Of a DNA stretch of 64,000 nt, positions 13,757 to 49,122 are shown piece by piece. The notes below the pieces were generated by a model, which ran no database searches, was not told the DNA's origin, and was given only the letters and a program-made list of their open reading frames with translations. The position numbers were made by a program, and so were the translations under genes. Every line of letters starts with the position of its first letter. Position 1 is the first letter of the stretch. The DNA is from Actinokineospora xionganensis (lineage in GTDB: Bacteria; Actinomycetota; Actinomycetes; Mycobacteriales; Pseudonocardiaceae): contig NZ_JABVED010000001.1 of the NCBI RefSeq assembly GCF_014323725.1, positions 354,505 through 418,504 of the forward strand. Direction: 5' to 3'.

Positions 13757-13770
13757 GGGACTTGCGTCCC
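13757..13770. promoter_or_regulatory. DosR-like box (perfect arms)
   Basis: GGGACTTGCGTCCC fits the GGGAC-N4-GTCCC core of the mycobacterial DosR palindrome (consensus GGGACTWWAGTCCC). Its centre is about 60 bases upstream of the first gene of the leftward operon, a normal position for activation. Confidence 0.65.
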
Positions 13771-13814
13771 GGCTTGCGGTGACCGAAGCCATCTCACCGG
13801 TCTTGTCGCCCACG

Positions 13815-13844
13815 CCGTAGGTCCCGCCACCTCGGGACCTACGG
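13815..13844. repeat. Perfect 11-bp inverted repeat
   Basis: CCGTAGGTCCC (13815-13825) and GGGACCTACGG (13834-13844) are exact reverse complements separated by eight bases. It lies in the divergent region between the DosR-box operon and a leaderless small gene. There is no T-run, so an operator or mRNA hairpin is more likely than a terminator. Confidence 0.6.
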
Positions 13845-13870
13845 CCACGGTGGACGATCACGATCCCGCC

Positions 13871-13883
13871 TAGCGTCGGTGCC
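13871..13883 (+). promoter_or_regulatory. -10 element of a leaderless promoter
   Basis: TAGCGT (13871-13876) followed by seven bases and then ATG 13884 is the typical actinobacterial leaderless arrangement. It supports the small gene that follows. Confidence 0.45.
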
Positions 13884-14108
13884 ATGGCTCTCCTCAGCAG
13901 GTCGCGGCGCGCGGTGGCCGCGGTGGCCGCACTCCGACCACACCGCGGCGACCACCGGCGGCTGAGCGTGCGGTGTCCGCGCAGCCATCACGTCGCAGCC
14001 GTCTACGACACGTCGGCCGGTGCCGTCTGCATCGCGACCACCGGCCCGCATGCCCACGGCTCCAAGGATTTCGTCGACGCCGGACAACGCACCCTGCGAG
14101 TGGGCTGA
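13884..14108 (+). CDS. Small hypothetical protein
   Basis: A 74-residue protein. The N-terminus is arginine/alanine rich; the rest (VAAVYDTSAGAVCIATTGPHAHGSKDFVDAG) looks like a compact soluble fold. Not recognised. Support comes from the leaderless -10 element exactly seven bases upstream and from its place directly before the universal stress gene in the same direction. It could be spurious. Confidence 0.45.
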   Translation: MALLSRSRRAVAAVAALRPHRGDHRRLSVRCPRSHHVAAVYDTSAGAVCIATTGPHAHGSKDFVDAGQRTLRVG

Positions 14109-14169
14109 CGCGGGTCCATCTCGGGCCCGACGACTCGCCGCTTCGTGTCTACTCAGGATGGTGATTGAC

Positions 14170-15003
14170 ATGGCTCCGACAGCTCACCGCGTCATTGTCG
14201 GGATCGACGGCTCACCCGCGGCCGCGGCGGCGCTCGCCTGGGCCGCACGCGAAGCCCGGCTGCGCGGTGCGGAACTCGTCGCGTGGACGATCGTCGACCA
14301 TCGTGGCCTTCCCGCGACGGAGTTCTTCTCCAAAGAGGCAACCGGCGGGTATCCGGTGACGATTCGCCGTGGGCGCGGGGACGCCGCCACCGCCTTGGCA
14401 GCCGCCGCACGCGGCGCGGACCTCCTGGTGGTCGGATCACGCTCTCGCGGCTCGGTCGCGGGTCTGCTGCTGGGTTCAGTCAGCCGCACGTGTCTCGCGC
14501 ACGCACCCTGCCCCGTCGTCGTGGTACACCCCGACCGGCCCGGAACCACTGTCCACGGCCGGGTTGTCGTGGGCGTCGACATGTCCGAACATTCCCACCA
14601 AGCGCTGCGGGTGGCGGCTCAGGAGGCCCGGTTTCGTGGCGCCGCGCTGGAAGTTGTCCACGCGGTGCATTGGGATCACCTCGGCACGGAAATGCTCACG
14701 CCGACGGTCGAGCAGCTCATCGACTGGGGCCACCGCCTCATCGCCGCGGAGTTCGTCGCGACCGGTGTGGAGGGCATCCCGGTCGTCGTGCACGGCCATG
14801 CCGCCGAGGTGCTGGTGCGTCACAGTGCCGACGCCGACTTGCTCGTGCTGGGCACGCGTGGACGCGGCCAGGTGGCCGACCTGCTTCTTGGCTCCACCAG
14901 CGCGCACTGCGCCCGCCACGCGCACTGTCCGGTCATGATCGTCGGTTGCACCGGTGACGCGCCACAGCGGGCGCCCGCCCACGCCCACGGGATGGGAACC
15001 TGA
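14170..15003 (+). CDS. Universal stress protein, tandem USP domains
   Basis: A 277-residue cytoplasmic protein made of two UspA domains. Each ends with the ATP-binding loop G-x2-G-x9-G(S): VVGSRSRGSVAGLLLGSVS in the first and VLGTRGRGQVADLLLGSTS in the second, and each begins with VIVGIDGS or VVVGVDMS. Tandem USPs of this type in mycobacteria (Rv1996, Rv2623) bind ATP and belong to the DosR dormancy response. The start could also be ATG 14158 or GTG 14161; ATG 14170 begins nearest to the conserved strand. Its stop overlaps the ATG of the P-type ATPase, reproducing the Rv1996-ctpF gene pair. Confidence 0.9.
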   Translation: MAPTAHRVIVGIDGSPAAAAALAWAAREARLRGAELVAWTIVDHRGLPATEFFSKEATGGYPVTIRRGRGDAATALAAAARGADLLVVGSRSRGSVAGLLLGSVSRTCLAHAPCPVVVVHPDRPGTTVHGRVVVGVDMSEHSHQALRVAAQEARFRGAALEVVHAVHWDHLGTEMLTPTVEQLIDWGHRLIAAEFVATGVEGIPVVVHGHAAEVLVRHSADADLLVLGTRGRGQVADLLLGSTSAHCARHAHCPVMIVGCTGDAPQRAPAHAHGMGT

Positions 15004-17714
15004 TGACCAGTGTCGCCTCGCCGCCGGCGTCGGCGGCACATCACGAACTGGCCGCCCACGAAGTGGTGCTGCTGCTGGAAACCGACGCCCACCGCGGCCT
15101 GAGCGCCCACGAAGCGCACGCGCGGCTGAACCGGTTCGGGCCGAACACCCTGCCCGCCACCGCGGGCGTCGGGCTGTTGGTGCGCGTCCTGCGGCAGTTC
15201 CACCACCCGCTGATCTACGTCCTGCTCGCCGCGGGCGCGATCACCGCCGGGCTGGGTGAGTACGTCGACTCCGCGGTGATCTTCGGCGTGGTCCTGGTCA
15301 ACGCGCTCGTCGGCTTCATCCAGGAATACAAGGCCGAGGCGGCATTGGACAGCCTGCGGTCGATGGCGCGCACGCAGGCCAAAGTCGTCCGCGACGGCCA
15401 CGAGCGGATCGTGCCGTCGGACGACCTTGTTCCCGGCGACCTGGTGCGGCTTGAAGCGGGTGACAGGGTTCCCGCAGACCTGCGCCTGGTCCGGTCGACC
15501 GAGCTGCGCGTGGACGAGTCCGCGTTGACCGGGGAATCCCTGGCGGTGCGCAAGGACGAGGTCGTGCTGTCGAGGGCGACCCCGGTGGCCGACCGCCGCA
15601 ACATGACCTACTCCGGCACCCTGGTGACCACCGGCGGGGGACTCGGGATCACGGTCGCGACCGGGGCCGAGACCGAACTCGGCGAGATACACCGGCTGGT
15701 CGGCGCCGCGGAGACCCTGGCGACACCGCTGACGCGAAAGCTCGCCCACTTCAGCAAGATCCTGACGGTGGGCATCCTTGCCCTGGCCGCGATCACCTTC
15801 GCCGTCGGCCTGATGCGCGGGCAGGACGCGGTGGCGACGTTCACCGCCGCGATCGCGCTCGCGGTGGGCGCGATCCCCGAGGGCCTGCCCGCCGCGGTGA
15901 CCATAACCCTGGCCATCGGTGTGGCCCGGATGGCGCGGCGACGCGCGGTGATCCGACGGCTGCCCGCGGTGGAGACCCTGGGCAGCACCACTGTCATCTG
16001 CACGGACAAGACCGGCACACTCACCGAGAACCAAATGACGGTGCGCATCGTGTGGACCCCCGGCGGTCGGTGTGAGGTGACCGGCTCCGGCTACGCCCCG
16101 GAAGGAACGCTGAACGACCACACCGGCGCCCGCGCGACCGAGGACCAGTCGCTGCGCTGGTCGCTGTTGGCGGGCGCCGCCTGCAACGACGCCGCCCTCG
16201 CCGAACGGGGCGGACGTTGGGAGGTCGTCGGCGATCCCACCGAGGGCGCGATGCTGGTCGTCGCCGCCAAAGCCGGACTCGGCCCCGAGCGAGTCACGCA
16301 CCTCGTGCCACGAGTCAAGACCATCCCGTTCAGCTCCGACCGCCGGTACATGGCCACTCTGCACCGCGACACCGACACCGCGGGCCACGTGGTGCTGGCC
16401 AAGGGCGCCGTCGAGCGGATGCTCGACCTGTCCGGCGCACAGATGGGCCCTGACGGCGCCATCCAGCCGCTCCAGCGTGACAGGGTGCTGCGCGCCGCCG
16501 AGGAACTCGCGGCACGGGGCCTGCGGGTGCTCGCCACGGCGATGCGCACCGTGGGCGGCCCGGAGGACTTCGCCGACGAAGCGGTGCCGGGAAGTCTGGT
16601 CCTGACCGGGTTGCAGGCCATGCTCGACCCACCCCGGGCCGCCGCGAAAGCCGCGGTCGCCGCCTGCCACACGGCGGGCATCGCGGTCAAGATGATCACC
16701 GGTGACCACGCCGCGACGGCCACCGCCATCGCCTGCGAGGTCGGACTGCTCGACGGCCGCGACCCAGGCGAGGGCGTCGTGCTGACCGGCGCCGACCTGG
16801 CCGCGATACCGGCCGAGGATTTCCCGGAGGCCGCGGACCGCGCGAGTGTGTTCGCCAGGGTGTCCCCGGAGCAGAAGCTCCGCCTTGTCGAGGCGCTGCA
16901 AGCCCGCGGCCACGTGGTGGCCATGACGGGCGACGGGGTCAACGACGCCCCCGCCCTGCGCCAGGCGGGTATCGGCGTGGCGATGGGCGAGACCGGCACC
17001 GAGGTGGCCAAGGACGCCGCGGACATGGTGCTCACCGATGACGACTTCGCCACCATCGAAGCCGCGGTCGAGGAAGGCCGCGGCGTATTCGACAACCTCA
17101 CGAAGTTCATCACCTGGACCCTGCCGACGAACATCGGTGAGGGCTTGGTCATCCTCGCCGCGATCGTGTTCGGCACGGCCCTGCCGATCCTGCCCACCCA
17201 GATCCTGTGGATCAACATGACCACCGCGGTCGCGATGGGGCTGATGCTCGCGTTCGAGCCGAAGGAACCGGCCATCATGACCCGGCCGCCCCGCGACCCT
17301 GATCAGCCGCTGCTCACCGGCGGGCTGATAGCGCGGATCATGCTGGTGTCGACCCTGTTGGTCGCGGGCTCGTGGTGGCTGTTCGAATGGGAACTCGCCC
17401 ACGGCGCGACCCTGGCCGAGTCCCGCACCGCGGCGATGAACCTGTTCGTCGTGGTGGAGGCGTTCTACCTGTTCAGCTGCCGCTCACTGACGCGCTCGGC
17501 TTGGCGGATCGGGTTGTTCACCAACCGGTGGATCATCGTCGGTGTCTCCGTCCAGGCGATCGGGCAACTCGCCATCACCTACCTGCCCGCCATGAACACC
17601 CTGTTCGGCACCGCACCCATCGGTGGACCGGCCTGGCTGCGCATCCTGGCCATCGCCGCGGCGGCGAGCCTCGTGGTCGCGGCCGACAAGTGGCTGCGGC
17701 GGCCGCGGTCATAG
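15003..17714 (+). CDS. ctpF: P-type cation ATPase, CtpF-like (P2)
   Basis: A 903-residue P-type ATPase. Seen in order: the N-terminal cation ATPase domain; the actuator loop with TGES (DESALTGESLAV); M4 with the IPEGLPAAVTITLAIG motif typical of P2 Ca2+/Na+ pumps; the phosphorylation site DKTGTLTENQMTV; MITGDHAATA; GDGVNDAPALRQAGIGVAMG; and a six-helix C-terminal cation ATPase domain. There is no CPC motif, so it is not a copper-type pump. M. tuberculosis CtpF, in the same USP-coupled context, is hypoxia-induced and linked to calcium export. Substrate here is inferred as Ca2+ or another light cation. Confidence 0.88.
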   Translation: MTSVASPPASAAHHELAAHEVVLLLETDAHRGLSAHEAHARLNRFGPNTLPATAGVGLLVRVLRQFHHPLIYVLLAAGAITAGLGEYVDSAVIFGVVLVNALVGFIQEYKAEAALDSLRSMARTQAKVVRDGHERIVPSDDLVPGDLVRLEAGDRVPADLRLVRSTELRVDESALTGESLAVRKDEVVLSRATPVADRRNMTYSGTLVTTGGGLGITVATGAETELGEIHRLVGAAETLATPLTRKLAHFSKILTVGILALAAITFAVGLMRGQDAVATFTAAIALAVGAIPEGLPAAVTITLAIGVARMARRRAVIRRLPAVETLGSTTVICTDKTGTLTENQMTVRIVWTPGGRCEVTGSGYAPEGTLNDHTGARATEDQSLRWSLLAGAACNDAALAERGGRWEVVGDPTEGAMLVVAAKAGLGPERVTHLVPRVKTIPFSSDRRYMATLHRDTDTAGHVVLAKGAVERMLDLSGAQMGPDGAIQPLQRDRVLRAAEELAARGLRVLATAMRTVGGPEDFADEAVPGSLVLTGLQAMLDPPRAAAKAAVAACHTAGIAVKMITGDHAATATAIACEVGLLDGRDPGEGVVLTGADLAAIPAEDFPEAADRASVFARVSPEQKLRLVEALQARGHVVAMTGDGVNDAPALRQAGIGVAMGETGTEVAKDAADMVLTDDDFATIEAAVEEGRGVFDNLTKFITWTLPTNIGEGLVILAAIVFGTALPILPTQILWINMTTAVAMGLMLAFEPKEPAIMTRPPRDPDQPLLTGGLIARIMLVSTLLVAGSWWLFEWELAHGATLAESRTAAMNLFVVVEAFYLFSCRSLTRSAWRIGLFTNRWIIVGVSVQAIGQLAITYLPAMNTLFGTAPIGGPAWLRILAIAAAASLVVAADKWLRRPRS

Positions 17715-18380: not shown

Positions 18381-18502
18381 CGAACCTCCGACGCTGGACA
18401 CTTTCCCGCTTCTGTCCGGTAGCGCACTACACCGGCGATCTGTGGATTGACCTGCGCGTTTGCCGCCAAGAATACTCGAATATGAGACAAGCGTCCATTA
18501 CC

Positions 18503-18514
18503 GGACGATCGTCC
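18503..18514. promoter_or_regulatory. Candidate TetR operator palindrome
   Basis: GGACGATCGTCC is a perfect 12-bp palindrome 35 bases upstream of the membrane-protein GTG (18549) and 123 bases upstream of the TetR gene. A weaker CTC-N6-GAG dyad lies at about 18475-18486. Confidence 0.45.
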
Positions 18515-18548
18515 CGAATTCACCGGCGCGCATGACACGGAGGACATT

Positions 18549-19327: not shown

Positions 19328-19437
19328 TTGAAGAAGCATGATGACAGGGTGTCGCCGCATCGTCATGGGCTCGGGCCAGGGAGGATCGCGGCCATGACGA
19401 CAACGCGGCATTCGCCTGCCGGCGAGGAGGGGTGCTC

Positions 19438-19773
19438 ATGAGCAAGCCCCTCTACGCGCTGAAAGCGGAGTTCTTCAAGACGCTGGGCCACCCCGTTCGC
19501 ATCCGGGTGCTCGAGCTGCTCAGCGAGCGCGAGCACGCGGTGGCGGAGATGCTGCCGGAGATGGGCATCGAGCCGTCGAACCTGTCGCAGCAGCTCGCCG
19601 TGCTGCGCCGGGCCGGGCTGGTGACCACGCGCAAAGAAGGATCGACCGTCTATTACTCGCTGACCAGCCCGCATGTGGCCGAGCTGTTGGCCGTCGCACG
19701 CAAAATCCTGACCGGTGTCCTTTCCGGACAAATGGAGCTACTGGAGGACCTGCGCACGGCGCGGGGTTCATGA
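19438..19773 (+). CDS. ArsR-family regulator, Rv0081-like
   Basis: A 111-residue winged-helix repressor: ALKAEFFKTLGHPVRIRVLELL, then VAEMLPEMGIEPSNLSQQLAVLRRAGLVTTRKEGSTVYYSL (recognition helix SNLSQQLAVLRRAG). It lacks the ELCVCDL-type metal cysteines of classical ArsR/SmtB sensors, so its signal is probably not arsenite. GAGGAGGGG precedes ATG 19438. It directly heads the hydrogenase-related operon, exactly as Rv0081 heads Rv0082-Rv0087 in M. tuberculosis, where Rv0081 is a hub regulator of the hypoxic response. It probably represses its own operon through the dyad at 19312. Confidence 0.88.
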   Translation: MSKPLYALKAEFFKTLGHPVRIRVLELLSEREHAVAEMLPEMGIEPSNLSQQLAVLRRAGLVTTRKEGSTVYYSLTSPHVAELLAVARKILTGVLSGQMELLEDLRTARGS

Positions 19774-19845
19774 GCCGCGACCATCCCCGCTGATCCTTGG
19801 CTCGCCCGCCCGGCGGGGGTGGTCGCACCCTGACGAGGAGTGCCG

Positions 19846-20328
19846 ATGCTGGGTCTTTGGCGCAAGATCCGCCGAACCGGGCGGATCGCCGAGCCCGCGC
19901 CGCCTGCCCCTGGTGACCGGGTCGAGGCGGCGGCGGGGCTGGGCGGCTCCGTGCAGATCCGGCATGTCGACGCCGGGTCATGCAATGGCTGCGAGGTGGA
20001 GATCGGTTCGGCGTTCGGGCCGGTCCACGACGCGGAGCGCTACGGCGCGCGGCTGGTGGCCTCGCCCCGGCACGCCGACGCGCTGCTGGTCACCGGTGTG
20101 GTGACCCGCAACATGGCAGAGCCGCTGCGCCGCACCTTCGAGGCCGTCCCGGCCCCGAAGCTGGTGGTCGCCGTGGGCGACTGCGCCCGCGACTGCGGTG
20201 TCTTCGCCGGCGCGTACGGGGTGGTCGGGCCGGTGTCCGATGTCGTCCCGGTGGACCTTGAGATCGCCGGGTGCCCACCGCGGCCGGAGGCGATCGTCGA
20301 GGGGTTGCGGAAGCTGACCGGCAGATGA
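19846..20328 (+). CDS. Small Fe-S subunit of hydrogenase-related complex (HycG/NuoB-like)
   Basis: A 160-residue NADH:quinone oxidoreductase 20-kDa-type subunit. The four ligands for the proximal [4Fe-4S] cluster are intact: C46 and C49 (GSCNGCEVEI), C113 (GDCARDC) and C143 (AGCPPRPEA). It matches Rv0082 in position and type. It would pass electrons at the interface with the large subunit, on the cytoplasmic face of the membrane arm. GAGGAG precedes the ATG; the stop overlaps the next gene by four bases. Confidence 0.88.
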   Translation: MLGLWRKIRRTGRIAEPAPPAPGDRVEAAAGLGGSVQIRHVDAGSCNGCEVEIGSAFGPVHDAERYGARLVASPRHADALLVTGVVTRNMAEPLRRTFEAVPAPKLVVAVGDCARDCGVFAGAYGVVGPVSDVVPVDLEIAGCPPRPEAIVEGLRKLTGR

Positions 20329-22337
20329 ACCTGGCCGCTTCGAGTTTCGGCGCCGCCGTGTCCATCGGCGCGCTCACCGCGATCATCGGCGCGCTCGCCA
20401 CCGCGCGGAGCCGGTCGACCCTGGTCGGTATCGGCACCGCGACGACTGGGGTGGCCGCGCTCCTGGCCGGGGGAGCCGCGCTCACCGGTGAGTCGTTTTC
20501 CCTTGCCGCGCCGGGCTTGCTGCCACTGTCGGGGGTGTCGCTCACGCTGGACGCGTTGGGCGCGCTGTTCGTCGCGGTCACCGGCGGCGTCGCCGTCGCC
20601 TGCGGTGTGTATGGCGTCTCCTACGCCCGCCACGGCCTCGATTCCCGCTTGGTGCAGGCGGTCTTTCCCTTGTTCGTGGTGGCGATGCTGCTGGTCCCGG
20701 TCGCGTCCTCGGTGGGCACGCTGCTGGTCTTCTGGGAACTTATGGCGCTGACCTCGCTGCTGCTGGTGCTCGCCGAGCACCGCCGCCGACCGGCGGTGGC
20801 CTCGGCCGCCCGCTGGTACGCGGTGATGACCCACCTCGGCTTCGTCACCATCCTCAGTGGACTGCTCGTGTTCGCCGCGCACGCCCCGGGCGACGACTTC
20901 GCGGCCCTGCGCGAAGCGGAGGTCTCGCCCTCGGTCGCCGCACTGGTGTTCCTGCTGACCCTGGCCGGGTTCGCGTCGAAGGCGGGAATCCTGCCGCTGC
21001 ACGCCTGGCTGCCGCGCGCGCACCCGGAGGCCCCGAGCCATGTCTCGGCGCTGATGTCCGCGGCGATGGTCAACCTCGGTGTCTACGGGATCGTGCGGGT
21101 CGGGTTCGACCTGCTCGGCGGCGGTCCGCGCTGGTGGTGGCTGCTGGTCCTGGCGCTGGGCGCGGTGTCGGCGGTGTACGGGATCCTGCAGGCCGCGATG
21201 AGCACCGATCTCAAGCGGCTGTTGGGTTTCTCCACGACGGAGAACCTGGGGCTGGTGCTCATCGGGGTCGGCGCCGCCGGGCTGTTCGCTGCCTTCGGCG
21301 ACCGGGTCCTCAGCGGGTTGGCGCTGGCCGCCGCGCTGCTGCACGTGCTCAACCACGCGGCGTTCAAGTCGTTGCTGTTCCTCGCGGCGGGCTCGGTGCT
21401 GCACGCCACCGGTACGCGCGACCTCGACGAACTCGGGGGCCTGCGCGCGGGGATGCCGGTGACCACGGCGGCGTTCGGCTGGGGTGCTCTGGCCGCTTCG
21501 GCGCTGCCGCCGGGGACCGCGTTCGTCTCGGAGTGGCTGCTGCTGCAGGCGCTGATCCACGGGTTGCCCGCCGATGGCGGAGCCGACGCGATCGTGATGC
21601 CGGTGGCGGTCGCCGCCGTCGCGCTGACCGCGGGCCTGGCGGTGGCGACGTTCGTCAAGGCGTTCGGTGTCGGTTTCCTCGCGAAGCCGCGCGGTGAGGC
21701 GGCGGCGCGGGCCCATGAGAGCCCGCCGACCATGCTCGCCGGGATGGGGCTGGCGGGTCTGGCCTGCGCGGTGCTCGCCTTGGCGCCGACGCTGGTCCTG
21801 CCCGCGGTGGGTGCGGCCTCCGGTGTCGCGCTGGGTGGTGAGGCGTCCGCCGTGACCGGGACGGTCACGATTCGTCTCGCGGGCGTCGCCGGATCGCTGT
21901 CACCGCTGATGATCACCCTGGGTCTCCTGGTGGCGGCGGTGGTGTCGCTGGGTGTGCTTCGCGCGGTCGCCGCGCGGCGGGCGCGCCGGACCGCGCGGCT
22001 GTGGGACTGCGGCGGCGGTCCCCTCTCCGCGCGGATGGAATACACGGCGACGTCGTTCGCCGAGCCGCTGCAACGGGTGTTCGACGATGTTCTGGCGCCC
22101 GAGCAGGACGTGGACGTGGACCACTTCGAGGAGTCGCGGTACCTGGTGCGCGCGGTGGCCTACCGGCGGGCGGTGCCCGACCGGGTCGAGCGCAGGCTCT
22201 ACCAACCGGTGCTCGCCGCGGTGGCCGCGTGGGGCCGGGCGGGCACGCGGTTGGCGACCGGCAGCGTGCACCGCTACCTCGGCTACGGCTTCTACACGCT
22301 GTGCGGTCTGCTGATCCTGCTGGCGGTGACCAGATGA
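20325..22337 (+). CDS. Proton-pumping antiporter-like subunit (HyfB/NuoL-type)
   Basis: A 670-residue membrane protein with about 14-16 helices. It contains the proton-conducting transporter core (FWELMALTSLLLVL, AGFASKAGILPLHAWLPRAHPEAPSHVSALMSA, MSTDLKRLLGFSTTENLGLVLIG, LLHVLNHAAFKSLLF), with the conserved helix-loop lysines and glutamate seen in NuoL/HyfB. It corresponds to Rv0083. It is inferred to translocate H+ (or Na+) when the complex turns over. Translation is probably coupled to the neighbours by ATGA overlaps at both ends. Confidence 0.9.
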   Translation: MNLAASSFGAAVSIGALTAIIGALATARSRSTLVGIGTATTGVAALLAGGAALTGESFSLAAPGLLPLSGVSLTLDALGALFVAVTGGVAVACGVYGVSYARHGLDSRLVQAVFPLFVVAMLLVPVASSVGTLLVFWELMALTSLLLVLAEHRRRPAVASAARWYAVMTHLGFVTILSGLLVFAAHAPGDDFAALREAEVSPSVAALVFLLTLAGFASKAGILPLHAWLPRAHPEAPSHVSALMSAAMVNLGVYGIVRVGFDLLGGGPRWWWLLVLALGAVSAVYGILQAAMSTDLKRLLGFSTTENLGLVLIGVGAAGLFAAFGDRVLSGLALAAALLHVLNHAAFKSLLFLAAGSVLHATGTRDLDELGGLRAGMPVTTAAFGWGALAASALPPGTAFVSEWLLLQALIHGLPADGGADAIVMPVAVAAVALTAGLAVATFVKAFGVGFLAKPRGEAAARAHESPPTMLAGMGLAGLACAVLALAPTLVLPAVGAASGVALGGEASAVTGTVTIRLAGVAGSLSPLMITLGLLVAAVVSLGVLRAVAARRARRTARLWDCGGGPLSARMEYTATSFAEPLQRVFDDVLAPEQDVDVDHFEESRYLVRAVAYRRAVPDRVERRLYQPVLAAVAAWGRAGTRLATGSVHRYLGYGFYTLCGLLILLAVTR

Positions 22338-23281
22338 CCCTCCTGGGCCTGATCGGCGGGGTGATCCAGCCGGTCCTGATCGTCGGCGGCGCTCCGCTGC
22401 TGGTCGGCGTGCTGCGGCAGGTGCGGGCCCGACTGGAGGGGCGCGTCGGGCCGGGCGTGCTGCAGCCGTGGCGCGACCTGCGCAAACTGGTCGGCAAGGA
22501 GGCGATCACCCCGCGGGGCACCAGCGAGCTGTTCCGGGTCGCGCCACTGGTCCTGGTGGCCACCACCCTGGTGGTCGCGGTGGTCGCGCCCTTCGTCACG
22601 ACCGCGTCCGCGGCCGATCCCGTGGCCGACCTGTTCGCCGTGGTCGCCCTGCTCGCCCTGGGCACGGCCGTCCTCGCGCTGGCCGCGATCGACACCGGCA
22701 CCGCGTTCGGCGGGATGGGCGCCAGCCGGGAGATGACCATCCTCGCACTGGTCGAGCCGACCTTGCTGGTGGCGATCTTCGCCCTGTCGGTTCCGGTCGG
22801 GTCGACCAGCCTGGCCGCGATCGTGTCCTCGACCCTGAACGATCCCGCGCGGGTCGTCTCGCCGGTGAGCCTGCTCGCCGCGGTGGCACTGGTCGTGGTG
22901 ATCGTCGCGGAGACCGGGCGGCTGCCGGTCGACAACCCGGCCACGCACCTGGAGCTGACGATGGTGCACGAGGCGATGACCCTCGAGTACGCCGGTCCGG
23001 ACCTGGCGCTCGTCGAGCTGGCCTCGGCCATGCGACTGACGGTGTTCCTCGGCCTGTTCGCGAACCTGTTCGCCCCCTGGGGGATCGCGACCTCGGCCGC
23101 GCCGCTCGCGCTGCTGGTCGGGGTCCTCGCGCTGGTGGTCAAGATCGCGGTCCTCGGGGCGCTGCTCGCCGCCGCGGAGGTTTTCCTCGCGAAGCTGCGC
23201 CTGTTCCGCGTCCCGGAGCTGCTCGCCGGGTCCTTCCTGCTGTCCCTGCTGGCCGTCTCGGCGTCGTTCTTCCTGGCCTGA
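22334..23281 (+). CDS. hycD: Membrane anchor subunit HycD/NuoH-like
   Basis: A 315-residue NuoH-family protein with eight helices. The cytoplasmic loops carry QPWRDLRKLVGKEAITPRG and VAETGRLPVDNPATHLELTMVHEAM, with the acidic residues that in complex I line the quinone cavity and E-channel. It forms the junction between the soluble Fe-S/large subunits and the pumping arm. It matches Rv0084 (hycD) in order. Confidence 0.9.
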   Translation: MTLLGLIGGVIQPVLIVGGAPLLVGVLRQVRARLEGRVGPGVLQPWRDLRKLVGKEAITPRGTSELFRVAPLVLVATTLVVAVVAPFVTTASAADPVADLFAVVALLALGTAVLALAAIDTGTAFGGMGASREMTILALVEPTLLVAIFALSVPVGSTSLAAIVSSTLNDPARVVSPVSLLAAVALVVVIVAETGRLPVDNPATHLELTMVHEAMTLEYAGPDLALVELASAMRLTVFLGLFANLFAPWGIATSAAPLALLVGVLALVVKIAVLGALLAAAEVFLAKLRLFRVPELLAGSFLLSLLAVSASFFLA

Positions 23282-23292
23282 AAGGAGAATCG

Positions 23293-23949
23293 GTGAACGA
23301 GACCCTGTTCACGCAACTGGTGGACCTCACCGCGGGCGCGATGCTGCTGACCGCCGTGCTGATCCTCTGGCGGCGCGAACTCGCCGTGATCGTGCGCGTC
23401 TTCGCGTTGCAGGGCCTCGCGTTGGCCGGGTTGGTCGCCGTCCTCGCCGCGCACGAGGACTCCGGTGAGCTGTGGGCGATCGCGGTCGGGATCGGCGTGC
23501 TGCGCGCGGGCGTGCTGCCGTACCTGCTGCGCCGGGCCCTGGCGGTCGCGGCGCGGCGGGAGACCGCGCCACTGGTCAACGTGGCCGCCTCGCTGCTGGC
23601 CGCCGCCGTGCTGATGATGCTGGCCTACGTCGTGTCCGCGCCGCTGGTCTCGCTGGCTCCCTCACCAGCCACCCGGGCGATCCCAGTCGGTGTGGCCGTG
23701 GTGCTGATCGGGTTCTTCGTGCTCGTGACCCGCCGCCGCGCGCTCTCGCAGGTCGTCGGGTTCCTGCTGCTCGACAACGGGATCACCGCGGTCGGGTTCC
23801 TCACCACCGCGGGCATCGACCTTGCCGTCGAGATCGGCGTGTCACTCGACGTGCTGCTCGCCGTGCTCGTCCTGCAGCTGCTGACCACCCGCATGCGGGA
23901 GGCCTTCGGCGACACCGACCTCGACGGCCTGCGGGAGTTGCGTGATTGA
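23293..23949 (+). CDS. hycP: HyfE/HycP-like membrane subunit
   Basis: A 218-residue protein with about seven helices. It resembles hydrogenase-4 component E (HyfE), itself related to NuoK: VLRAGVLPYLLRRAL, LVTRRRALSQVVGFLLLDNGITAVGFL. It matches Rv0085 (hycP). GTG start after AAAGGAG. It overlaps the following ATG (TGATG). Confidence 0.85.
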   Translation: MNETLFTQLVDLTAGAMLLTAVLILWRRELAVIVRVFALQGLALAGLVAVLAAHEDSGELWAIAVGIGVLRAGVLPYLLRRALAVAARRETAPLVNVAASLLAAAVLMMLAYVVSAPLVSLAPSPATRAIPVGVAVVLIGFFVLVTRRRALSQVVGFLLLDNGITAVGFLTTAGIDLAVEIGVSLDVLLAVLVLQLLTTRMREAFGDTDLDGLRELRD

Positions 23950-27286: not shown

Positions 27287-27300
27287 GGGACGTTAGTCCC
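27287..27300. promoter_or_regulatory. DosR-like box upstream of narK
   Basis: GGGACGTTAGTCCC differs from the mycobacterial DosR core GGGACTWWAGTCCC at one position. Its centre is about 95 bases before the narK ATG. It is the best match in the window. Confidence 0.75.
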
Positions 27301-34162: not shown

Positions 34163-34800
34163 CCTTCTCCGAAGCCGACTGCGCCACCGCGTGGCAAACC
34201 CAGTCCCTTCTCATGAGCTATCCCGACGACGAACTCGTCGACCGGCTTGCGCTGCTGCGGGCCGCGACCGCGACGCTGCCCACAGCGTTGGCCGCACCAC
34301 TGAACGCGTTCCTGGACCACGTGTCGGCCACACCGTTGATCGACCTGGCCGCGGACTACGTGGCCACGTTCGACCACCGCAAGCGGTTCAGCCCCTACCT
34401 CACCTACTTCGCCTACGGCGACACCCGCAAACGCGGCATGGCGCTGCTGCGGTTCAAACACGCCTACCGGGCCGCAGGCCTGGAACTCGGCGACAGCGAA
34501 CTGCCCGACCACCTCGCGGTCGTGCTGGAGTTCGCCGCCACCGGCAACCCGGTCACCGGACCGCGGCTGATGATCGAACACCGCGCCGGGCTCGAACTGA
34601 TCCGCATCGGCCTGCGCGAGACCGGCTCGCCCTGGGCGCACGTCCTGGAGTCGGTGACCGCGACCTTGCCGCCCTTGGGTAAACGCGAACACGAAGCCGT
34701 CGCCCGTCTGGCCGCCGAAGGGCCACCCGAGGAGGAAGTCGGCCTCGCGCCCTTCGCGCCGCCCGAGTACATGCCGCAGGCACAGGGAGGCGCCCGATGA
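34159..34800 (+). CDS. narJ: Nitrate reductase assembly chaperone
   Basis: A 213-residue NarJ/TorD-type all-helical chaperone required for molybdenum cofactor insertion into NarG. DYVATFDHRKRFSPYLTYFAYGDTRKRG is the family hallmark. ATGA overlap with narH and again with narI. Confidence 0.94.
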   Translation: MTFSEADCATAWQTQSLLMSYPDDELVDRLALLRAATATLPTALAAPLNAFLDHVSATPLIDLAADYVATFDHRKRFSPYLTYFAYGDTRKRGMALLRFKHAYRAAGLELGDSELPDHLAVVLEFAATGNPVTGPRLMIEHRAGLELIRIGLRETGSPWAHVLESVTATLPPLGKREHEAVARLAAEGPPEEEVGLAPFAPPEYMPQAQGGAR

Positions 34801-35558: not shown

Positions 35559-37265
<1,707 letters not shown>

Positions 37266-38369: not shown

Positions 38370-38383
38370 GGGACAAAGGTCCC
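38370..38383. promoter_or_regulatory. DosR-like box between divergent genes
   Basis: GGGACAAAGGTCCC has both GGGAC and GTCCC arms intact. It is positioned between the Acg-like gene (103 bases away on the minus strand) and an 81-residue gene starting at 38476 on the plus strand, so it may serve both. Confidence 0.7.
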
Positions 38384-38941: not shown

Positions 38942-39556
38942 TCAGGCGCAGGCCAGGGCATCCAAAGCCGTGCTCGGGAGGGCCCGGCCGCCCGCTTCGA
39001 GGTGTTTGCGCAGCCGGGTCAGCGCCCGGTGTTGGCGTACCCGCACGGACCCGGTCGAGCAGCCCAGGGCTTGGGCGACCTCGGCCGCGCTCATGCCCAG
39101 GCCCAAGCGCCACCAGAGCAACTCACGCTGATGGTCGGGAAGGATGCTCAGCAGTCGCGACAGGGCACGGACCGATTCGCCGCGCACCGCCTGCTCCTCA
39201 GGTCCGGCGTCGTTCCCGAAATCGTCCGGCAGTTCCGCCCGCGGATCGGAGCGGTCGCGAATCACCCGCCTGCGCTCGTCGGCGATCTTGTGTTCGGCGA
39301 TGCCGAAGACCAAAGGCCAGAACGACCGCTCGTCCCAGGTCGCGCGACCGGAGGACAGGGAGACCATGACAGCGAGGCAGACCTCCTGGGCGATGTCGTC
39401 GGCGTCGGCGGCGGCCCGGTTCCAGCCGTGGGTCCGGCGTCGACAAAACGGCAACACGCGCTGCCGGAGCAGCGAGAACAGGACCGAGGTGGCCTGGTGT
39501 TCGCCCGCCCTGGTTCGCTCCAGGAGTCGGGCGATGTCTGCGGTGTCCTTGGTCAT
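38942..39556 (-). CDS. ECF-type RNA polymerase sigma factor
   Basis: A 204-residue sigma-70 family protein with region 2 (ATSVLFSLLRQRVLPFC, DADDIAQEVCLAVM, FWPLVFGIAEHKIADERRR) and region 4 (LSILPDHQRELLWWRLGLGMSAAEVAQALGCS, in parts). It most resembles the ShbA/SigD-like actinobacterial group. No anti-sigma gene is adjacent. The start at MTKDTADIA (39556) follows CCGGAGAC; the upstream extension looks non-coding. Confidence 0.85.
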   Translation of the reverse strand: MTKDTADIARLLERTRAGEHQATSVLFSLLRQRVLPFCRRRTHGWNRAAADADDIAQEVCLAVMVSLSSGRATWDERSFWPLVFGIAEHKIADERRRVIRDRSDPRAELPDDFGNDAGPEEQAVRGESVRALSRLLSILPDHQRELLWWRLGLGMSAAEVAQALGCSTGSVRVRQHRALTRLRKHLEAGGRALPSTALDALACA

Positions 39557-39646: not shown

Positions 39647-39660
39647 GGGTCGAAAGTCCC
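39647..39660. promoter_or_regulatory. DosR-like box (one arm substitution)
   Basis: GGGTCGAAAGTCCC has an intact AGTCCC arm and GGGTC in place of GGGAC. It lies 108 bases upstream of the E2-type acyltransferase and 90 bases upstream of the sigma gene. A weaker related stretch (AGGACCTTGGGT) follows at about 39697. Confidence 0.5.
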
Positions 39661-39767: not shown

Positions 39768-40565
39768 ATGACTGAACGCGTGCGTGGATGGCGCAAGCTC
39801 GCGGGTTCCAGTTGGCGACCGCCGGACGATCCCCAGTTCTACGGCGAACTGGAGATCGACGCCTCGGCGATGTTGTCCTATGTGGAATACATCAGGGAGC
39901 ACACCGGGACCAGGCTGACGATGACCCACCTGGTCGGCCGGGCGGTGGCGTACGGACTCGCCGAGGTTCCCGAGATGTGCGCCCGGCTCGCGTTCGGCCG
40001 GACTCATCCCAGGGAGTCCATCGACGTGTTCTTCATCGTGGCCACCGACGGCGGGCGCGAGCTCACGGGGGTGAAGATCAGTGACGCGGACACGAAGCCC
40101 GCGGTTCGGATCGCCGACGAGCTGAACCAACGCGTCGAGCAGATCACCCGCGGTGAGGACCCGGCGTTCGGCAGGAGCAAGCGGATGCTGGCCGTGCTTC
40201 CGCCCATGGTGTTGCGCCGGGTGCTGAACCTGGCCGCCTGGCTCACCTCCGACCTCAACCTGGACCTGAGCCCGCTGGGCATGCCGCGCCAGGCCTTCGG
40301 GGCCGCCATGGTCACCTCCGTCGGCATGTGGGGCGTGCGGATCGCCTACTCGCCGCTGGCCCGGTACTACCGGGTGCCGCTGCTGGTGCTGGTCGGCGCG
40401 GTGGAATCGCGGCCGATGGTGGTGGACGGCGAGGTGCGGGCGCGTCCCGTGCTGACACTCACAGCGACGGTGGACCACCGCTACGCGGACGGCAGCCACA
40501 CCGCCCGAATGGCCGACGCCGTCCGCCGCTACTGCTCGAACCCGAGCGCGTTCGAGCCGTCATGA
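39768..40565 (+). CDS. Stand-alone E2-type (2-oxoacid dehydrogenase) acyltransferase
   Basis: A 265-residue protein consisting only of the chloramphenicol-acetyltransferase-like catalytic domain of dihydrolipoyl acyltransferases. The active-site motif is visible near the C-terminus (TATVDHRYADGSHTARM; His and Asp of H-R-x-x-D-G). The lipoyl and E1/E3-binding domains are missing, so it is not a dehydrogenase core subunit. It may transfer acyl groups from CoA to another acceptor. It converges on and overlaps by six bases the WS/DGAT gene, which uses the same fold, suggesting a shared lipid role (inference). Confidence 0.8.
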   Translation: MTERVRGWRKLAGSSWRPPDDPQFYGELEIDASAMLSYVEYIREHTGTRLTMTHLVGRAVAYGLAEVPEMCARLAFGRTHPRESIDVFFIVATDGGRELTGVKISDADTKPAVRIADELNQRVEQITRGEDPAFGRSKRMLAVLPPMVLRRVLNLAAWLTSDLNLDLSPLGMPRQAFGAAMVTSVGMWGVRIAYSPLARYYRVPLLVLVGAVESRPMVVDGEVRARPVLTLTATVDHRYADGSHTARMADAVRRYCSNPSAFEPS

Positions 40566-41957
40566 CCGAGCGCCAGGGGTCTCGGCCGAGTCGTGCGCGC
40601 CCGCGGTTCGGATGATCAGGTCCAGTTCGGCGCGTAGGCCCGCGGTCAGTGTCTCGAGGTCCGGGAAGTGATCCGGGTCGACGATCGCCGTGACGGTCAT
40701 CGTGCCCGCATAGGACACGACGTCGAAGCAGGCGGTCATGTTGCCGCCGTCGGCCAGGGCGAGGGGAATCGCCGAGGTGATCGGTGATCCATCGAAGGCC
40801 AGCCGCCCGCCGGGCACGCGGACGTGGCTCACAAGCGTGTGCAGGCGGTGTTGGTGGTTCATGTACCACCGGTAGCCCCCGAGTGCGGCGAGCGGCCGGA
40901 ACAGCCAGCCCAGCACGGCGATCGGCGGCGGCCCGGTCGCCTCGGCCTTGTGCGCGCGGACCTCGGCGGCGACTGTCCGAAGGCGCTGACCGACGTCGCC
41001 TGCCGTGGGTACCTGGACGAGCAGTGGGGAGACCATGTTCCCCAATTCCGGCCCCGCGCCCGATCGCCCGGACACCGGCACCGCCATGGCGATGCGGTCT
41101 ACGGTCTCCTTTCTGGCACTGAGCACCCGGCGCAACGCCCCCGCGACAGCCACCAGCAGGGCGTCGTTCGTCGTCGCGCCGTGTCGGTGCGCGGCGGGCC
41201 GCAGCTCGGCGAGATCGACCCGGACCACCGCGGCCGCCAGACGTGGGCCGGTCCGCTGGATCAGCGAGCACGGTGCGGCTTGCGGCGGGCGGAGTCCGCC
41301 CCCCGCGCCCATCGACGTGCGCAGCAGCCGCCACGCCGCCCTGCCGCGGCGCAGCGCACGCACCCTGTCCACCATCGCTTGGCGGACGAGCGCGCCCCGG
41401 GTCGGACGCGGCCGTGGAAAGTCGCTTTCGTTCGTGGCGTTTGTGCCGTCCACCAGATTCGCGAGGACGGCGAGCCCACCCACACCGTCGGCCAAGACGT
41501 GGTGCAGCACGACCACCAAGGCGAACCCTCCGCCGGAGAGGCCGGTGACGCACACCGCCGACCACAGCGGGGCGTCGGGCGGCAGCGGTGTGGCGATCAC
41601 GGAGATGGCGGTGTCCAGCAGCGCCCGTTCGTCGCCCGGGGCGGGGCACGCCACCGCACGCACCTGGCGGCCGATGTCGAACCCGTCGTCGTCGACCCAG
41701 ATCGGGCCGCCACACCCGAACGGCACCCGGATCAGCCGCTGCCGCAGCCGGGGAACCGAGCGGACACGCTCGGCGAGCAGCTGTCGGACCCGAGAGAGGT
41801 CGAAGGCGCCGGACTGGTCGATCCGCAACACCACGCCGAACTGCTCGGGAATCTGCCCGGTGTCCATCGCCAAGAACGCCAGGTCCGTGGGACTCGCGCG
41901 GTCGACGACCGTCTCGACCGGCCGTGAACGACCCTGGTGGCGCACCGTCTCAGTCAT
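40560..41957 (-). CDS. WS/DGAT wax ester synthase/diacylglycerol acyltransferase
   Basis: A 465-residue acyltransferase of the bifunctional WS/DGAT family, which makes triacylglycerol or wax esters from acyl-CoA at the membrane. The catalytic HHxxxDG motif is HHVLADG (H152, H153, D157, G158). RVDLAELRPAAHRHGATTNDALLVAVAGALR (in parts) and NMVSPLLVQVP are typical. M. tuberculosis tgs1 (Rv3130c), beside the Acg paralogue Rv3131, is DosR-controlled and builds storage fat in dormancy; this gene has the same neighbourhood. Start at MTETVRHQ (41957); GTG 41972 is an alternative. Confidence 0.9.
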   Translation of the reverse strand: MTETVRHQGRSRPVETVVDRASPTDLAFLAMDTGQIPEQFGVVLRIDQSGAFDLSRVRQLLAERVRSVPRLRQRLIRVPFGCGGPIWVDDDGFDIGRQVRAVACPAPGDERALLDTAISVIATPLPPDAPLWSAVCVTGLSGGGFALVVVLHHVLADGVGGLAVLANLVDGTNATNESDFPRPRPTRGALVRQAMVDRVRALRRGRAAWRLLRTSMGAGGGLRPPQAAPCSLIQRTGPRLAAAVVRVDLAELRPAAHRHGATTNDALLVAVAGALRRVLSARKETVDRIAMAVPVSGRSGAGPELGNMVSPLLVQVPTAGDVGQRLRTVAAEVRAHKAEATGPPPIAVLGWLFRPLAALGGYRWYMNHQHRLHTLVSHVRVPGGRLAFDGSPITSAIPLALADGGNMTACFDVVSYAGTMTVTAIVDPDHFPDLETLTAGLRAELDLIIRTAGAHDSAETPGARS

Positions 41958-41993: not shown

Positions 41994-42007
41994 GAGTCCA
42001 AGGTCCC
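41994..42007. promoter_or_regulatory. Degenerate DosR-like box
   Basis: GAGTCCAAGGTCCC (on the minus strand GGGACCTTGGACTC) has one perfect arm and two substitutions in the other. Its centre is 43 bases upstream of the WS/DGAT ATG at 41957. Confidence 0.45.
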
Positions 42008-44088: not shown

Positions 44089-44140
44089 GAGTGCGACTGG
44101 ACCGACACCGTAGGGCGGATAACGCGCTACCCTGAAACTG

Positions 44141-44156: not shown

Positions 44157-44169
44157 AAGGAGCGTCATC

Positions 44170-45528: not shown

Positions 45529-45540
45529 GGCGCGGACGAC

Positions 45541-46335: not shown

Positions 46336-46364
46336 CCAAAACCCTTTGGAAAGGAAGGATTACC

Positions 46365-46760
46365 ATGAAATACGACCTCAGCGTCATGCTGGACCTGCCG
46401 TATGAGACCGCCGTCGCCGAGGTGCGCGCCGCGCTGAAGGAGCAGGGTTTCGGGGTGCTGACCGAGATCGACGTCAAGGCGACGATGCGGGAGAAGCTCG
46501 ACGCCGACATCGAGCCCTACGTCATTCTCGGCGCGTGCAACCCATCGCTGGCCTACCGCGCGCTGGAGGTCGACCGCATGATCGGCCTGCTGCTGCCGTG
46601 CAACGTCGTGGTCCGCGCGGACGGCGCCGACCGCACCCTGGTCCAAGCACTCGATCCGCGCGTGATGATCGACGTGCCCGAGCGCGAAGAGCTCCGCCCG
46701 GTCGCGGAGGAGGCGGGCACACGAATCCGCGCCGCCCTCCAGACTCTGACGGCGTCGTAG
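46365..46760 (+). CDS. DUF302 family protein
   Basis: A 131-residue single-domain DUF302 protein: LDLPYETAVAEVRAALKEQGFGVLTEIDVKATMREKL (in parts), LGACNPSLAYRALEVDRMIGLLLPCNVVVR. The Cys in GACNP and the PCNV stretch are the conserved core. No enzymatic role is proven; the family accompanies sulfur and heavy-metal loci. AAGGAAGG before ATG 46365 favours this start over ATG 46332, which overlaps the TauE stop. Confidence 0.88.
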   Translation: MKYDLSVMLDLPYETAVAEVRAALKEQGFGVLTEIDVKATMREKLDADIEPYVILGACNPSLAYRALEVDRMIGLLLPCNVVVRADGADRTLVQALDPRVMIDVPEREELRPVAEEAGTRIRAALQTLTAS

Positions 46761-46778
46761 CGCGGAGGGGAACACGCC

Positions 46779-48209
46779 GTGAGTCCACTCAACCGCCGGG
46801 CGTTCCTCGGTGCGACCGCGCTCGGGATGCTCAGCGCCTGCGCTCCGGCCGTGAGCACCTCCCGACTGGTCCTGCCCGCCGACCCGCGGGTGGGCGAGGT
46901 CGAAGCGGCCCGCCACGGCACCGGCCGCACCCGGTCGTTCACCCTCACCGCGACGCCCAGCAGGGTCGACCTCGGTGGGCCGATAGTCGACACCTGGACC
47001 TATGACGGCGCGGTGCCCGGTCGCGAGATGCGTGTCGCCGCCGGTGACACGATCGAGGCAAGGCTGGTCAACCGGCTGCCCGTGGACACCTCGATCCACT
47101 GGCACGGTTTGGCGCTGCGCAACGACATGGACGGCGCGCCGCACCTGACCCAGCCCCCGATAGCCTCGACCACGGACTTCACCTACCGGTTCACCGCGGC
47201 GACGCCGGGCACCCACTGGCTGCACCCGCACACCGGCACCCAACTCGACCGCGGGCTGTACGCGCCCCTCATCGTCGAGGACCCAGCCGACCCCGGTGCC
47301 CACGACGCGGAATGGGTCGTCGTTCTCGACGACTGGATCGACGGCACGGGCACGGACCCGGACCAGGTGCTCGCCGACCTGCGCGGACGCGGCGGCCATG
47401 CCATGCGCGGCGCCGGCGGCCGGGTGCTCGGCGGGGATGTCTCCTACCCGCACTACCTCATCAACGGCCGAATCGCGGCGGCACCGACCACCTTCACGGC
47501 CCGCCCCGGACAGCGGGTGCGGATCCGATTCATCAACGCGGGCTCCGACACCGCGTTCCGCGTCGCGCTCGGCGGACACCGCATGACGGTCACCCACACC
47601 GACGGCTACCCGATCATCCCTGTCGACACCGACGCGGTGCTGATCGGCATGGGCGAGCGCTACGACGTCCTGGTCACCCTCGCCGACGGCGTGTTCCCGC
47701 TGGTGGCGGTGGCCGAGGGCAAGAACGCCACCGCTCTGGCGATCGCGCGCACCGGCGCGGGCGCCCCACCCGGTCCCGGGTCCCGACCCGCCGAGCTGAC
47801 CCGGGTGACGATCGGCTACCCGGACCTGTCGGCCACCCCAGCGGTCGCGCTGCCCGCGAAATCACCTGATGTCGTTCACCGCGTCGCCCTCACCGGCGCG
47901 ATGATGGGCTACGAATGGGGGATCAACGGCCGCGCCAACGACCTCGACGCCAGGTCCCTTGTCCGAGAAGGGCAGCGAGTCCGGCTGCGGTTCGTCAACA
48001 ACACGATGATGTGGCACCCGATGCACCTGCACGGCCACACCTTCCAGCTCGGCGATTCCGGCCCGCGCAAGGACACCGCGGTCGTCCTGCCCGGCCAGAG
48101 CGTCGACTGCGTCTTCGACGCCGACAACCCGGGCCAGTGGATGATCCACTGTCACAACACGTATCACGCCGAAGCCGGGATGATGGCCGTGCTCGGCTAC
48201 CAGTCCTGA
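46779..48209 (+). CDS. Multicopper oxidase, exported lipoprotein-like
   Basis: A 476-residue three-cupredoxin oxidase. The N-terminus has NRRAFLGA (Tat-like twin arginine) and a lipobox-like LSAC. Copper motifs are complete: HWHGLALRNDMDGAPHLTQ, THWLHPHTGTQLDRGLYAPLIVE (in parts), HPMHLHGHTF and HCHNTYHAEAGMM (type 1 and trinuclear ligands). It could oxidise Cu(I) or metal ions outside the cell. Its place in a persulfide-regulated operon is notable, since copper and sulfide stress interact. GTG start with GGAGGGG eight bases upstream. Confidence 0.9.
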   Translation: MSPLNRRAFLGATALGMLSACAPAVSTSRLVLPADPRVGEVEAARHGTGRTRSFTLTATPSRVDLGGPIVDTWTYDGAVPGREMRVAAGDTIEARLVNRLPVDTSIHWHGLALRNDMDGAPHLTQPPIASTTDFTYRFTAATPGTHWLHPHTGTQLDRGLYAPLIVEDPADPGAHDAEWVVVLDDWIDGTGTDPDQVLADLRGRGGHAMRGAGGRVLGGDVSYPHYLINGRIAAAPTTFTARPGQRVRIRFINAGSDTAFRVALGGHRMTVTHTDGYPIIPVDTDAVLIGMGERYDVLVTLADGVFPLVAVAEGKNATALAIARTGAGAPPGPGSRPAELTRVTIGYPDLSATPAVALPAKSPDVVHRVALTGAMMGYEWGINGRANDLDARSLVREGQRVRLRFVNNTMMWHPMHLHGHTFQLGDSGPRKDTAVVLPGQSVDCVFDADNPGQWMIHCHNTYHAEAGMMAVLGYQS

Positions 48210-48232
48210 TCGCAGGGCAGCTGGTGCGGGAT

Positions 48233-48718
48233 CTAGCCGACGGCGGGCTTGCGGACGGGGACGCTGATCTCGGTCAGGTAGTCCTCGGTGCCTGCCGTGT
48301 CCCACGGTCCGATGAGATAGGTCTCGGTCGGGTGCCCCGCCAGGTCGTAGCCCGCATCGTGGACCCGGATCAGCAGCGCGTCGTAGGCGTCCCGGATGTC
48401 GTCGTACGGTCCTTTGTGGAAGACGTGCGCCACGAGTCCACCCGGTCGTCGCGTGAGAATGTCACTGTCGTGGCGCCCCGGCTTCTCGATGACCGGCAGG
48501 CTGGTCTCGATCTCGACGGTGCGGCCGGGCTGAAACCCGTTGAAATAGGTGACATCAGGTGCTCCACAGGTGGACAGGTCGATGTCATACGCCCTGCCCG
48601 CGAGGTCCACCACGGCCGACCGCACGGCCTCCGGGACCCGGTCAGCAGGCACGGACATCCGGCTGCACAACACGGTGCTCGGTTCGACTTCCTTGAAATT
48701 CACCGCGTAGGACATCAT
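48233..48718 (-). CDS. GyrI-like small-molecule-binding protein
   Basis: A 161-residue SOUL/GyrI-like (AraC effector-binding) domain without DNA-binding part: VNFKEVEPSTVLCSRMSV, TYFNGFQPGRTVEIETSLPV, GGLVAHVFHKGPYDDIRDAYDALL, ETYLIGPWDT and EDYLTEISVPV. Such stand-alone proteins bind amphipathic cations or hydrolyse cyclopropanoids in a few cases. The ligand is unknown. Two tandem ATGs mark the start; AAAGGCGG lies upstream. DosR-like half sites lie 160-250 bases upstream. Confidence 0.8.
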   Translation of the reverse strand: MMSYAVNFKEVEPSTVLCSRMSVPADRVPEAVRSAVVDLAGRAYDIDLSTCGAPDVTYFNGFQPGRTVEIETSLPVIEKPGRHDSDILTRRPGGLVAHVFHKGPYDDIRDAYDALLIRVHDAGYDLAGHPTETYLIGPWDTAGTEDYLTEISVPVRKPAVG

Positions 48719-49122
48719 GGACCGCCTTTCTTCCTGGAGCCGCACCTCCGGGAGCTGTGGCTCGGCGGAGTCAGACGTCGTGCGAGCCGTCTTCCCCCGT
48801 CCGCCCTGTCCAAGAACCGCATGGCCGCCACCTCCTGGTGTAGGTCCAGTGTGGTCCGTCGCGCACCGCCGCCGCCGGGGCCTTTGGTCGCGGCCGGACG
48901 GGGGCCTTCGTCGCCGACGCTCGTGCCGGCATCCGAGGTCCCTTGGTGGGCGGGTCGTTGGTCCCTGGACCGCCGCGCGCCATGTCGGTGACGGTGACAT
49001 CGACAACCTGGTCCCGGCAACGGAAGGCGGCGAGTCCGATGACGCACGGCCCCTGCCGGCGGCTGCACCCAATCACGATGTCCCATCGCTATGCGAGCAC
49101 GCACGATCGAGGTCGGGGCGCG
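48719..49122. other. Intergenic region with repeated GGTCC-type elements
   Basis: No gene is convincing here. It holds several related motifs: GGGCCTTTGGTCGC (48878-48891), GAGGTCCCTTGGTG (about 48935-48948) and the better box at 48952. Translations are arginine/proline rich. Confidence 0.4.
48952..48965. promoter_or_regulatory. DosR-like box (one arm substitution)
   Basis: GGGTCGTTGGTCCC has an intact GTCCC arm and GGGTC in the other arm, the same variant as at 39647. It lies about 170 bases before the small membrane gene at 49123 and 235 bases before the GyrI-like gene. Confidence 0.45.

Follow-up and report, generated by a model that had tools for sequence, protein, structure and literature searches.

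What do palindromes with the core GGGAC-N4-GTCCC, scattered between the genes of a 64-kb stretch of Actinokineospora xionganensis DNA (C1:354505-418504 of its 6.81-Mb genome; hereafter the window), signify? Comparative analysis indicated that they are very probably the operators at which a response regulator of the DosR/DevR type would bind; its gene lies ~57 kb upstream of the window, and the boxes form part of a low-oxygen gene island. A sequence-only reading had proposed a dormancy-type regulon from six of these sites (window positions 13757, 27287, 38370, 39647, 41994, and 48952), and all six were recovered with intact arms or the one to two substitutions it described (Table 1).

The abundance of the motif was of little help. 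The intact palindrome occurred 12 times in the 6.8-Mb genome compared to nine times for a reversed-pattern control, such that the motif was hardly enriched overall, and with up to two mismatches the window held fewer matches than shuffled sequence (55 observed vs. 96 expected). The latter count was rejected as uninformative and the former as an argument; because the genome-wide number is close to its control, the case rests on place and intergenic position. Both counts speak for a chance origin, i.e., GC-rich palindromes in 70% GC DNA beside which flattering genes were picked, as does the distribution of the seven intact sites outside the island, four of which were intergenic and three inside called genes. 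The motif signal is nevertheless local and intergenic. The window contained three of the 12 intact sites (binomial P = 1.7e-4), and five fell between C1:284742 and 403469 (P = 1.1e-6). Allowing up to one mismatch, eight matches lay in the 11.7 kb of intergenic DNA of the window vs. one in its 52.3 kb of coding DNA, compared to four (56 kb) and 21 (344 kb), respectively, in a 400-kb control set drawn from this genome. The 76.5 kb upstream of the window held eight intergenic and two coding matches, and the 37.5 kb downstream none and two. The sequence-only reading had named as its own refutation a motif equally frequent within and between genes; the window gave an intergenic excess instead.

A symmetrised 22-bp matrix was built from the eight intergenic sites with up to one mismatch upstream of the window, and none from the window itself, and was applied with a cut-off score of at least 10. 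It matched eight intergenic positions and one coding position in the window vs. one and 17, respectively, in the 400-kb control DNA. The intergenic difference was significant (Fisher P = 6e-6) and coding DNA did not differ between window and control (P = 0.50). None of 300 column-permuted palindromic matrices reached eight intergenic matches (mean 1.1, maximum 6), and all six sites of the sequence-only reading scored above 13. The enrichment of boxes between genes over coding DNA is the pattern of a DosR/DevR-type (OsdR-type) regulon and, together with the position of boxes before DosR orthologues and the intergenic excess around 80 named DosR relatives described below, makes chance hardly credible as an explanation.

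The box-bearing island spans ~119 kb, starting 70 kb upstream of the window, and encodes the components of a two-component system. A NarL/FixJ-family response regulator orthologous to DevR was identified at C1:296619-297257 with receiver and GerE domains; its best match among solved chains was DevR/DosR (3c3w, E = 1.3e-84 over residues 3-210) and the next molecule was VraR (5.2e-38). Its own promoter carries an intact box (score 16.9, centred at -87, one of the training sites) and a second box (10.8) 35 bp further upstream. A GAF kinase matching DosT is encoded convergently with the regulator (L002:16905-18611), and a second, 81% identical to it, lies in the window behind narGHJI. The DosT GAF domain 2vzw matches both (E = 2.2e-56 and 3.5e-57), as do 2w3d and 3zxo/3zxq, and both contain a His/Tyr pair spaced by 22 residues that aligns with 2vzw. 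These conserved residues are presumably those of the haem site, in keeping with GAF kinases of the DosS/DosT type, and the Pfam domain scan covered the window kinase. The pair may represent a duplication that provides separate inputs to one regulator. The C-terminal part of the kinases also resembles NarX/NarQ and the genome encodes many NarL-family regulators, such that the boxes might instead serve another regulator of this family answering nitrate or nitrite, with narK-narGHJI among its targets. However, a box fronts the DosR orthologue, no other solved chain comes close to DosT/DosS as a match for the N-terminal GAF domain, and most boxes front genes without an evident nitrate link, rendering such a regulator very unlikely. 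A DosR orthologue preceded by its own box, together with a pair of DosS/DosT-like kinases encoded in the same island, supports the dormancy-regulon proposal, the inventory of which had lacked the regulator, the window kinase, the ECF (extracytoplasmic function) sigma factor gene, and the boxes at 13277, 18502, and 52478.

From these parts we infer binding, phosphotransfer, signal, direction of regulation, and responding genes as follows. The two kinases would detect oxygen loss (or NO, CO, or redox state) at a GAF-bound haem and phosphorylate the DosR-type regulator, which would then bind the boxes before its own gene and before many transcription units of the island. Nitrate respiration would be switched on through narK and perhaps through narGHJI by read-through, along with Acg-family flavoproteins, universal stress proteins (USPs) and CBS-domain proteins, wax ester/triacylglycerol storage, and the ECF sigma factor.

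Table 1. Predicted DosR-type boxes and annotated genes of the window (positions relative to its first nucleotide; ORF, open reading frame; PEP, phosphoenolpyruvate; MFS, major facilitator superfamily).
Feature	Position	Strand	Remarks
Gene row	13703-7768	-	membrane protein, 102-aa ORF, PPDK_N/PEP-utilizer protein, PAP2/PhoD protein
Box, matrix match	13277..13290		score 10.0; within a 76-bp gap, 102-aa ORF and PEP-utilizer genes following
Box, intact	13757..13770		score 13.2; centre ~60 bp upstream of the minus-strand gene row start (13703)
Universal stress protein (USP), three USP stretches	14158..15003	+	start judged by eye
P-type cation ATPase	15063..17714	+	family match
Box pair, weak tandem	18484..18515		2 and 1 mismatches; precedes the 18612 membrane gene
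ArsR-family regulator and six-gene row	19432..26953	+	five with complex-I/hydrogenase-type Pfam matches, one 218-aa ORF without
Box, intact	27287..27300		score 16.3; ~200 bp upstream of narK
NarK-like MFS transporter	27494..28660	+	best NCBIfam match NarK family, 208 bits, cut-off of 311.7 not reached
narGHJI, respiratory nitrate reductase	28833..35558	+	narG above its cut-off
DosS/DosT-like sensor kinase, GAF-GAF-HisKA_3-HATPase	35598..37265	+	putative haem-site His132, Tyr154
Acg-family FMN-binding oxidoreductase	37287..38273	-	NF047509, 312.6 bits, cut-off 199
Box, intact	38370..38383		score 17.7; ~103 bp upstream of the Acg-family gene
ECF sigma factor, ShbA-like	38942..39556	-	best NCBIfam match ShbA, below its cut-off
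Box, 1 mismatch	39647..39660		score 14.8; between the divergent ECF sigma and E2-like genes
Stand-alone 2-oxoacid dehydrogenase acyltransferase (E2-like) domain protein	39870..40565	+	domain match
WS/DGAT (wax ester synthase/diacylglycerol acyltransferase)	40560..41957	-	Pfam; 252.3 bits, NCBIfam cut-off (309.95) not reached
Box, 2 mismatches	41994..42007		score 14.4; centre ~40 bp upstream of the WS/DGAT start
Box, 1 mismatch	48952..48965		score 15.8; in poorly coding DNA
Box, 1 mismatch	52478..52491		score 12.4; upstream of an NlpC/P60 gene, target uncertain

The genes placed behind the six sites by the sequence-only reading largely held, with boxes in intergenic DNA before narK, the Acg-family gene, the E2-like gene, WS/DGAT, and the membrane/PEP-utilizer row; the site at 48952 had no convincing gene behind it, and the site at 39647, assigned to the E2-like gene alone, is shared with the divergent ECF sigma gene. 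A USP gene near the boxes was also confirmed, its start lying ~390 bp from the box at 13757. The second box of the weak tandem (18502) scored 9.8, under the cut-off, and the ArsR gene and the complex-I/Hyc-like row follow downstream of the 18612 membrane gene. Boxes upstream of the window front genes for a phosphoketolase, two more Acg-family proteins, CBS-domain proteins, an Rv2632c-like protein, an AMP-ligase/SDR pair, and a polysaccharide deacetylase. The genome has six Acg-like matches, all within C1:287239-392777, and the three tested against NCBIfam were all above the Acg-family cut-off. The core targets of such a regulon (Acg family, USP, nitrate genes, and WS/DGAT) were thus found near boxes, and the Acg, USP, narK/narGHJI, WS/DGAT, P-type ATPase, and Rv2632c-like genes fit the dormancy-type set. 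The Rv1733c-like gene that had been suggested nearby was not confirmed, as Pfam and NCBIfam gave no family for the 231-aa membrane protein at 18612, which was also without a match in the other 15 Actinokineospora genomes.

Two further DosR-like regulators are encoded in the same genome (C5:99087 and C23:38919; 59 and 63% identical), each with a kinase relative nearby, and the boxes could be genuine but used mainly by, or shared with, these proteins as a node of cross-talk. An intact box scoring 20.9 ~7 kb from the C23 regulator would suit this arrangement, as would the OsdK cross-talk described for Streptomyces (Urem et al., 2016; PMC5069765). Nevertheless, three genomes of the genus without the island regulator retain two of the more distant ones yet have no Acg-family match, and none of five distant-regulator promoters with retrieved loci in other genomes had a box of at least 10 (one reached 9.0). 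Use of the boxes mainly by one of the distant regulators, or by all three together, was judged rather unlikely, and the DosR orthologue in the island remains the preferred reader of the boxes. Strong intact intergenic boxes outside the island were observed at C23:31648, the site near the C23 regulator, and at C1:147898 (score 18.0), ~120 bp upstream of another LuxR-type regulator gene.

Conservation was assessed in 16 genomes of the genus, including that of A. xionganensis, taking DosR orthologues as at least 81% identical. The DosR orthologue and Acg-family matches were present in the same 13 genomes and both absent from the other three (Fisher P = 0.0018, not corrected for relatedness). A box of at least 10 was identified upstream of 12 of the 15 DosR orthologues in these 13 genomes, in every case at -83 to -102; the A. 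xionganensis box was a training site, and 11 of the 14 other orthologues have a box independent of training. None of 21 promoters of distant MFS control genes reached 10 and one reached at least 8 (21 of 25 distant loci, as four partial matches were dropped, the highest at 9.9 and none at 10). Acg promoters reached 10 at 13 of 29 retrieved loci, which are a subset of the matches with one partial match (L141) left out. In the close relative G014, matches of at least 10 precede the orthologues of all eight training sites, and a WS/DGAT gene 85% identical to that of the window has a match of 10.9 ~150 bp upstream. Five of the 12 other Acg-bearing genomes of the genus were chosen for clustered Acg matches, and their regions contained more intergenic than coding matches (G014, 13 and 6; G002, 8 and 2; G001, 14 and 2; G013, 4 and 2; G005, 9 and 1) coding DNA there exceeding intergenic DNA about three- to fivefold. 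The regulator, the DosS/T-like kinases, and the box form an island-like module in the genus Actinokineospora.

On a wider scale, the best 80 of the named DosR relatives listed were inspected, from Actinokineospora to Rhodococcus, Nonomuraea, and Mycobacterium, with up to 10 kb on either side (several loci ending at contig ends) and matches below 60 bits left out; some genomes occur twice, and relatives at 62-65% identity may be paralogues. Around them, boxes occurred at 6.9 per 10 kb of intergenic DNA and 0.40 per 10 kb of coding DNA, and 33 of the 80 loci had a box of at least 10 in the 400 bp preceding the DosR match. Their neighbors included a kinase (65 loci), Acg (32), USP (23), P-type ATPase (13), XFP (12), and WS/DGAT (5); narG, narK, and the PEP-utilizer gene were each found at one of the 80 loci, and HycE, ArsR, and E2 at none of the 80. 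The density of boxes around DosR relatives in many actinobacteria suggests that soil actinomycetes other than Mycobacterium and Streptomyces could serve for the study of dormancy-type oxygen control. In the Acg promoters L114-L119, L122, L123, and L142, visual inspection showed that several carry a further degenerate motif (about GGGACTTCNCNCYCTGTG), placed 22-23 or 39-40 bp downstream of the main box as cooperative binding might require.

A number of observations weigh against a DosR operator function for the boxes. The training sites of the matrix were themselves picked as intergenic with up to one mismatch to the motif of the sequence-only reading, and the coding mask came from a simple home-made composition-based gene caller that is weak in the lower-GC DNA beyond ~49 kb. 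A good match (25881, score 12.0) lies inside a gene, narGHJI has no matrix match of its own, the box at 48952 is followed only by a 64-aa ORF with a hydrophobic stretch (49039-49233), and the target of the box at 52478 is uncertain. The two further DosR-like regulators offer other possible readers. Within the genus, three of the 15 DosR promoters fell below 10, a narK box was present at two of four orthologues (that of A. xionganensis included; G001 at a similar distance, G012 and G010 without), and in G001 the DosR orthologue is on a different contig from the box-rich nar/Acg region. The boxes of G014 could be kept by shared ancestry alone in so close a relative. A score of at least 10 was reached by no more than 6 of 15 Acg promoters in Actinokineospora (one being a training site) and 7 of 14 in other genera, and among other ECF promoters used as controls one of nine reached 10.9.

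The island shares with the DosR/DevR-DosS-DosT system of M. tuberculosis a regulator with solved DevR as its best match and kinases with the GAF domains of DosT/DevS. We take its Acg-family, USP, narK, WS/DGAT, and ArsR plus Hyc-like genes to have counterparts in the M. tuberculosis DosR regulon. The ArsR gene and complex-I/Hyc-like row are comparable to Rv0081-Rv0088, which He is said to have reported in 2011 to be co-regulated by DosR. Unlike in M. tuberculosis, narGHJI lies inside the island, the two kinases are a close duplication, and no Rv1733c-like gene was confirmed in the window.

The closest published parallel was the OsdKR regulon of Streptomyces coelicolor (SCO0167-SCO0219). OsdR is 61% identical to DevR and binds a palindrome conforming to that of DevR, its sites crowd the osdR region and include osdR itself, and universal stress and nitrate reductase genes around osdR are less expressed in the mutant (Urem et al., 2016; PMC5069765). 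Features shared with the present island are a DevR orthologue, a DevS/DosT-like kinase, a similar palindrome, a box before the regulator's own gene, and a box-rich neighborhood that includes universal stress proteins along with a nitrate/nitrite transporter and an operon for nitrate reductase (PMC5069765). The paper gives osdR and osdK as an operon, whereas here the regulator and first kinase are convergent and the second kinase stands behind narGHJI; it also gives the OsdR consensus as AGGGCCGATCGGCCCT, which is not comparable with a consensus from the present sites, as these were picked by GGGAC (PMC5069765). Also encoded in the island are the six Acg-like proteins, WS/DGAT, the ECF sigma factor, and the complex-I/Hyc-like row, which may distinguish its cargo from that of the Streptomyces regulon. 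A limited search found no paper on DosR in Actinokineospora or Pseudonocardia, or on DevR/DosR and hypoxia in Rhodococcus or actinomycetes, although such papers may exist. The extension of a dormancy-type circuit to another actinomycete lineage, claimed by the sequence-only reading, is supported by the island, a known DosR/OsdR kind of system; it is less new than proposed and a solid but largely expected extension, because a similar arrangement was already described in Streptomyces (Urem et al., 2016; PMC5069765).

Two elements deserve further attention, namely the boxed sigma factor gene and the additional kinase gene next to narGHJI, and the box-to-gene map offers testable targets in the ECF sigma factor, the wax ester/triacylglycerol synthase, and a Hyc-like complex of unknown function. 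The ECF protein scored 182.2 bits against the ShbA family (NF007230, cut-off 209), making it ShbA-like rather than a family member, and its best relatives in the genus, among the matches listed, were at most 48% identical. The DosR island of G002 contains a different ECF sigma gene (G002:C7:456472-457104) with a box upstream (region position 17172, score 13.7). At only 38% identity, the two proteins are each slightly closer to ShbA-like proteins elsewhere in the genus than to one another; by BLAST, the genes are probably non-orthologous, as if the wiring of an ECF sigma factor to a DosR box had arisen more than once. A second tier, in which the DosR orthologue would drive a dedicated ShbA-like sigma factor and hypoxia would redirect RNA polymerase beyond the boxed genes, is a doubtful prospect. 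An ECF sigma gene as a general DosR neighbor was also considered and was not supported (none of the 80 named loci).

Among the remaining genes of the window, the P-type ATPase is presumably CtpF. A working [NiFe] site is unlikely in the HycE-like large subunit of the 19432..26953 row because the predicted protein has no CxxC motif. An origin as a mobile element was dropped because no tRNA was found and no mobile-element family was present among the window proteins scanned with Pfam, which comprised part of the window ORFs. Thioredoxin, CsoR-type repressor, metallo-beta-lactamase/rhodanese, TauE, DUF302, and multicopper oxidase genes follow one another at 43121-48209; the row had no matrix match of at least 10 and, from its predicted products, looks like a sulfur/copper stress cluster.

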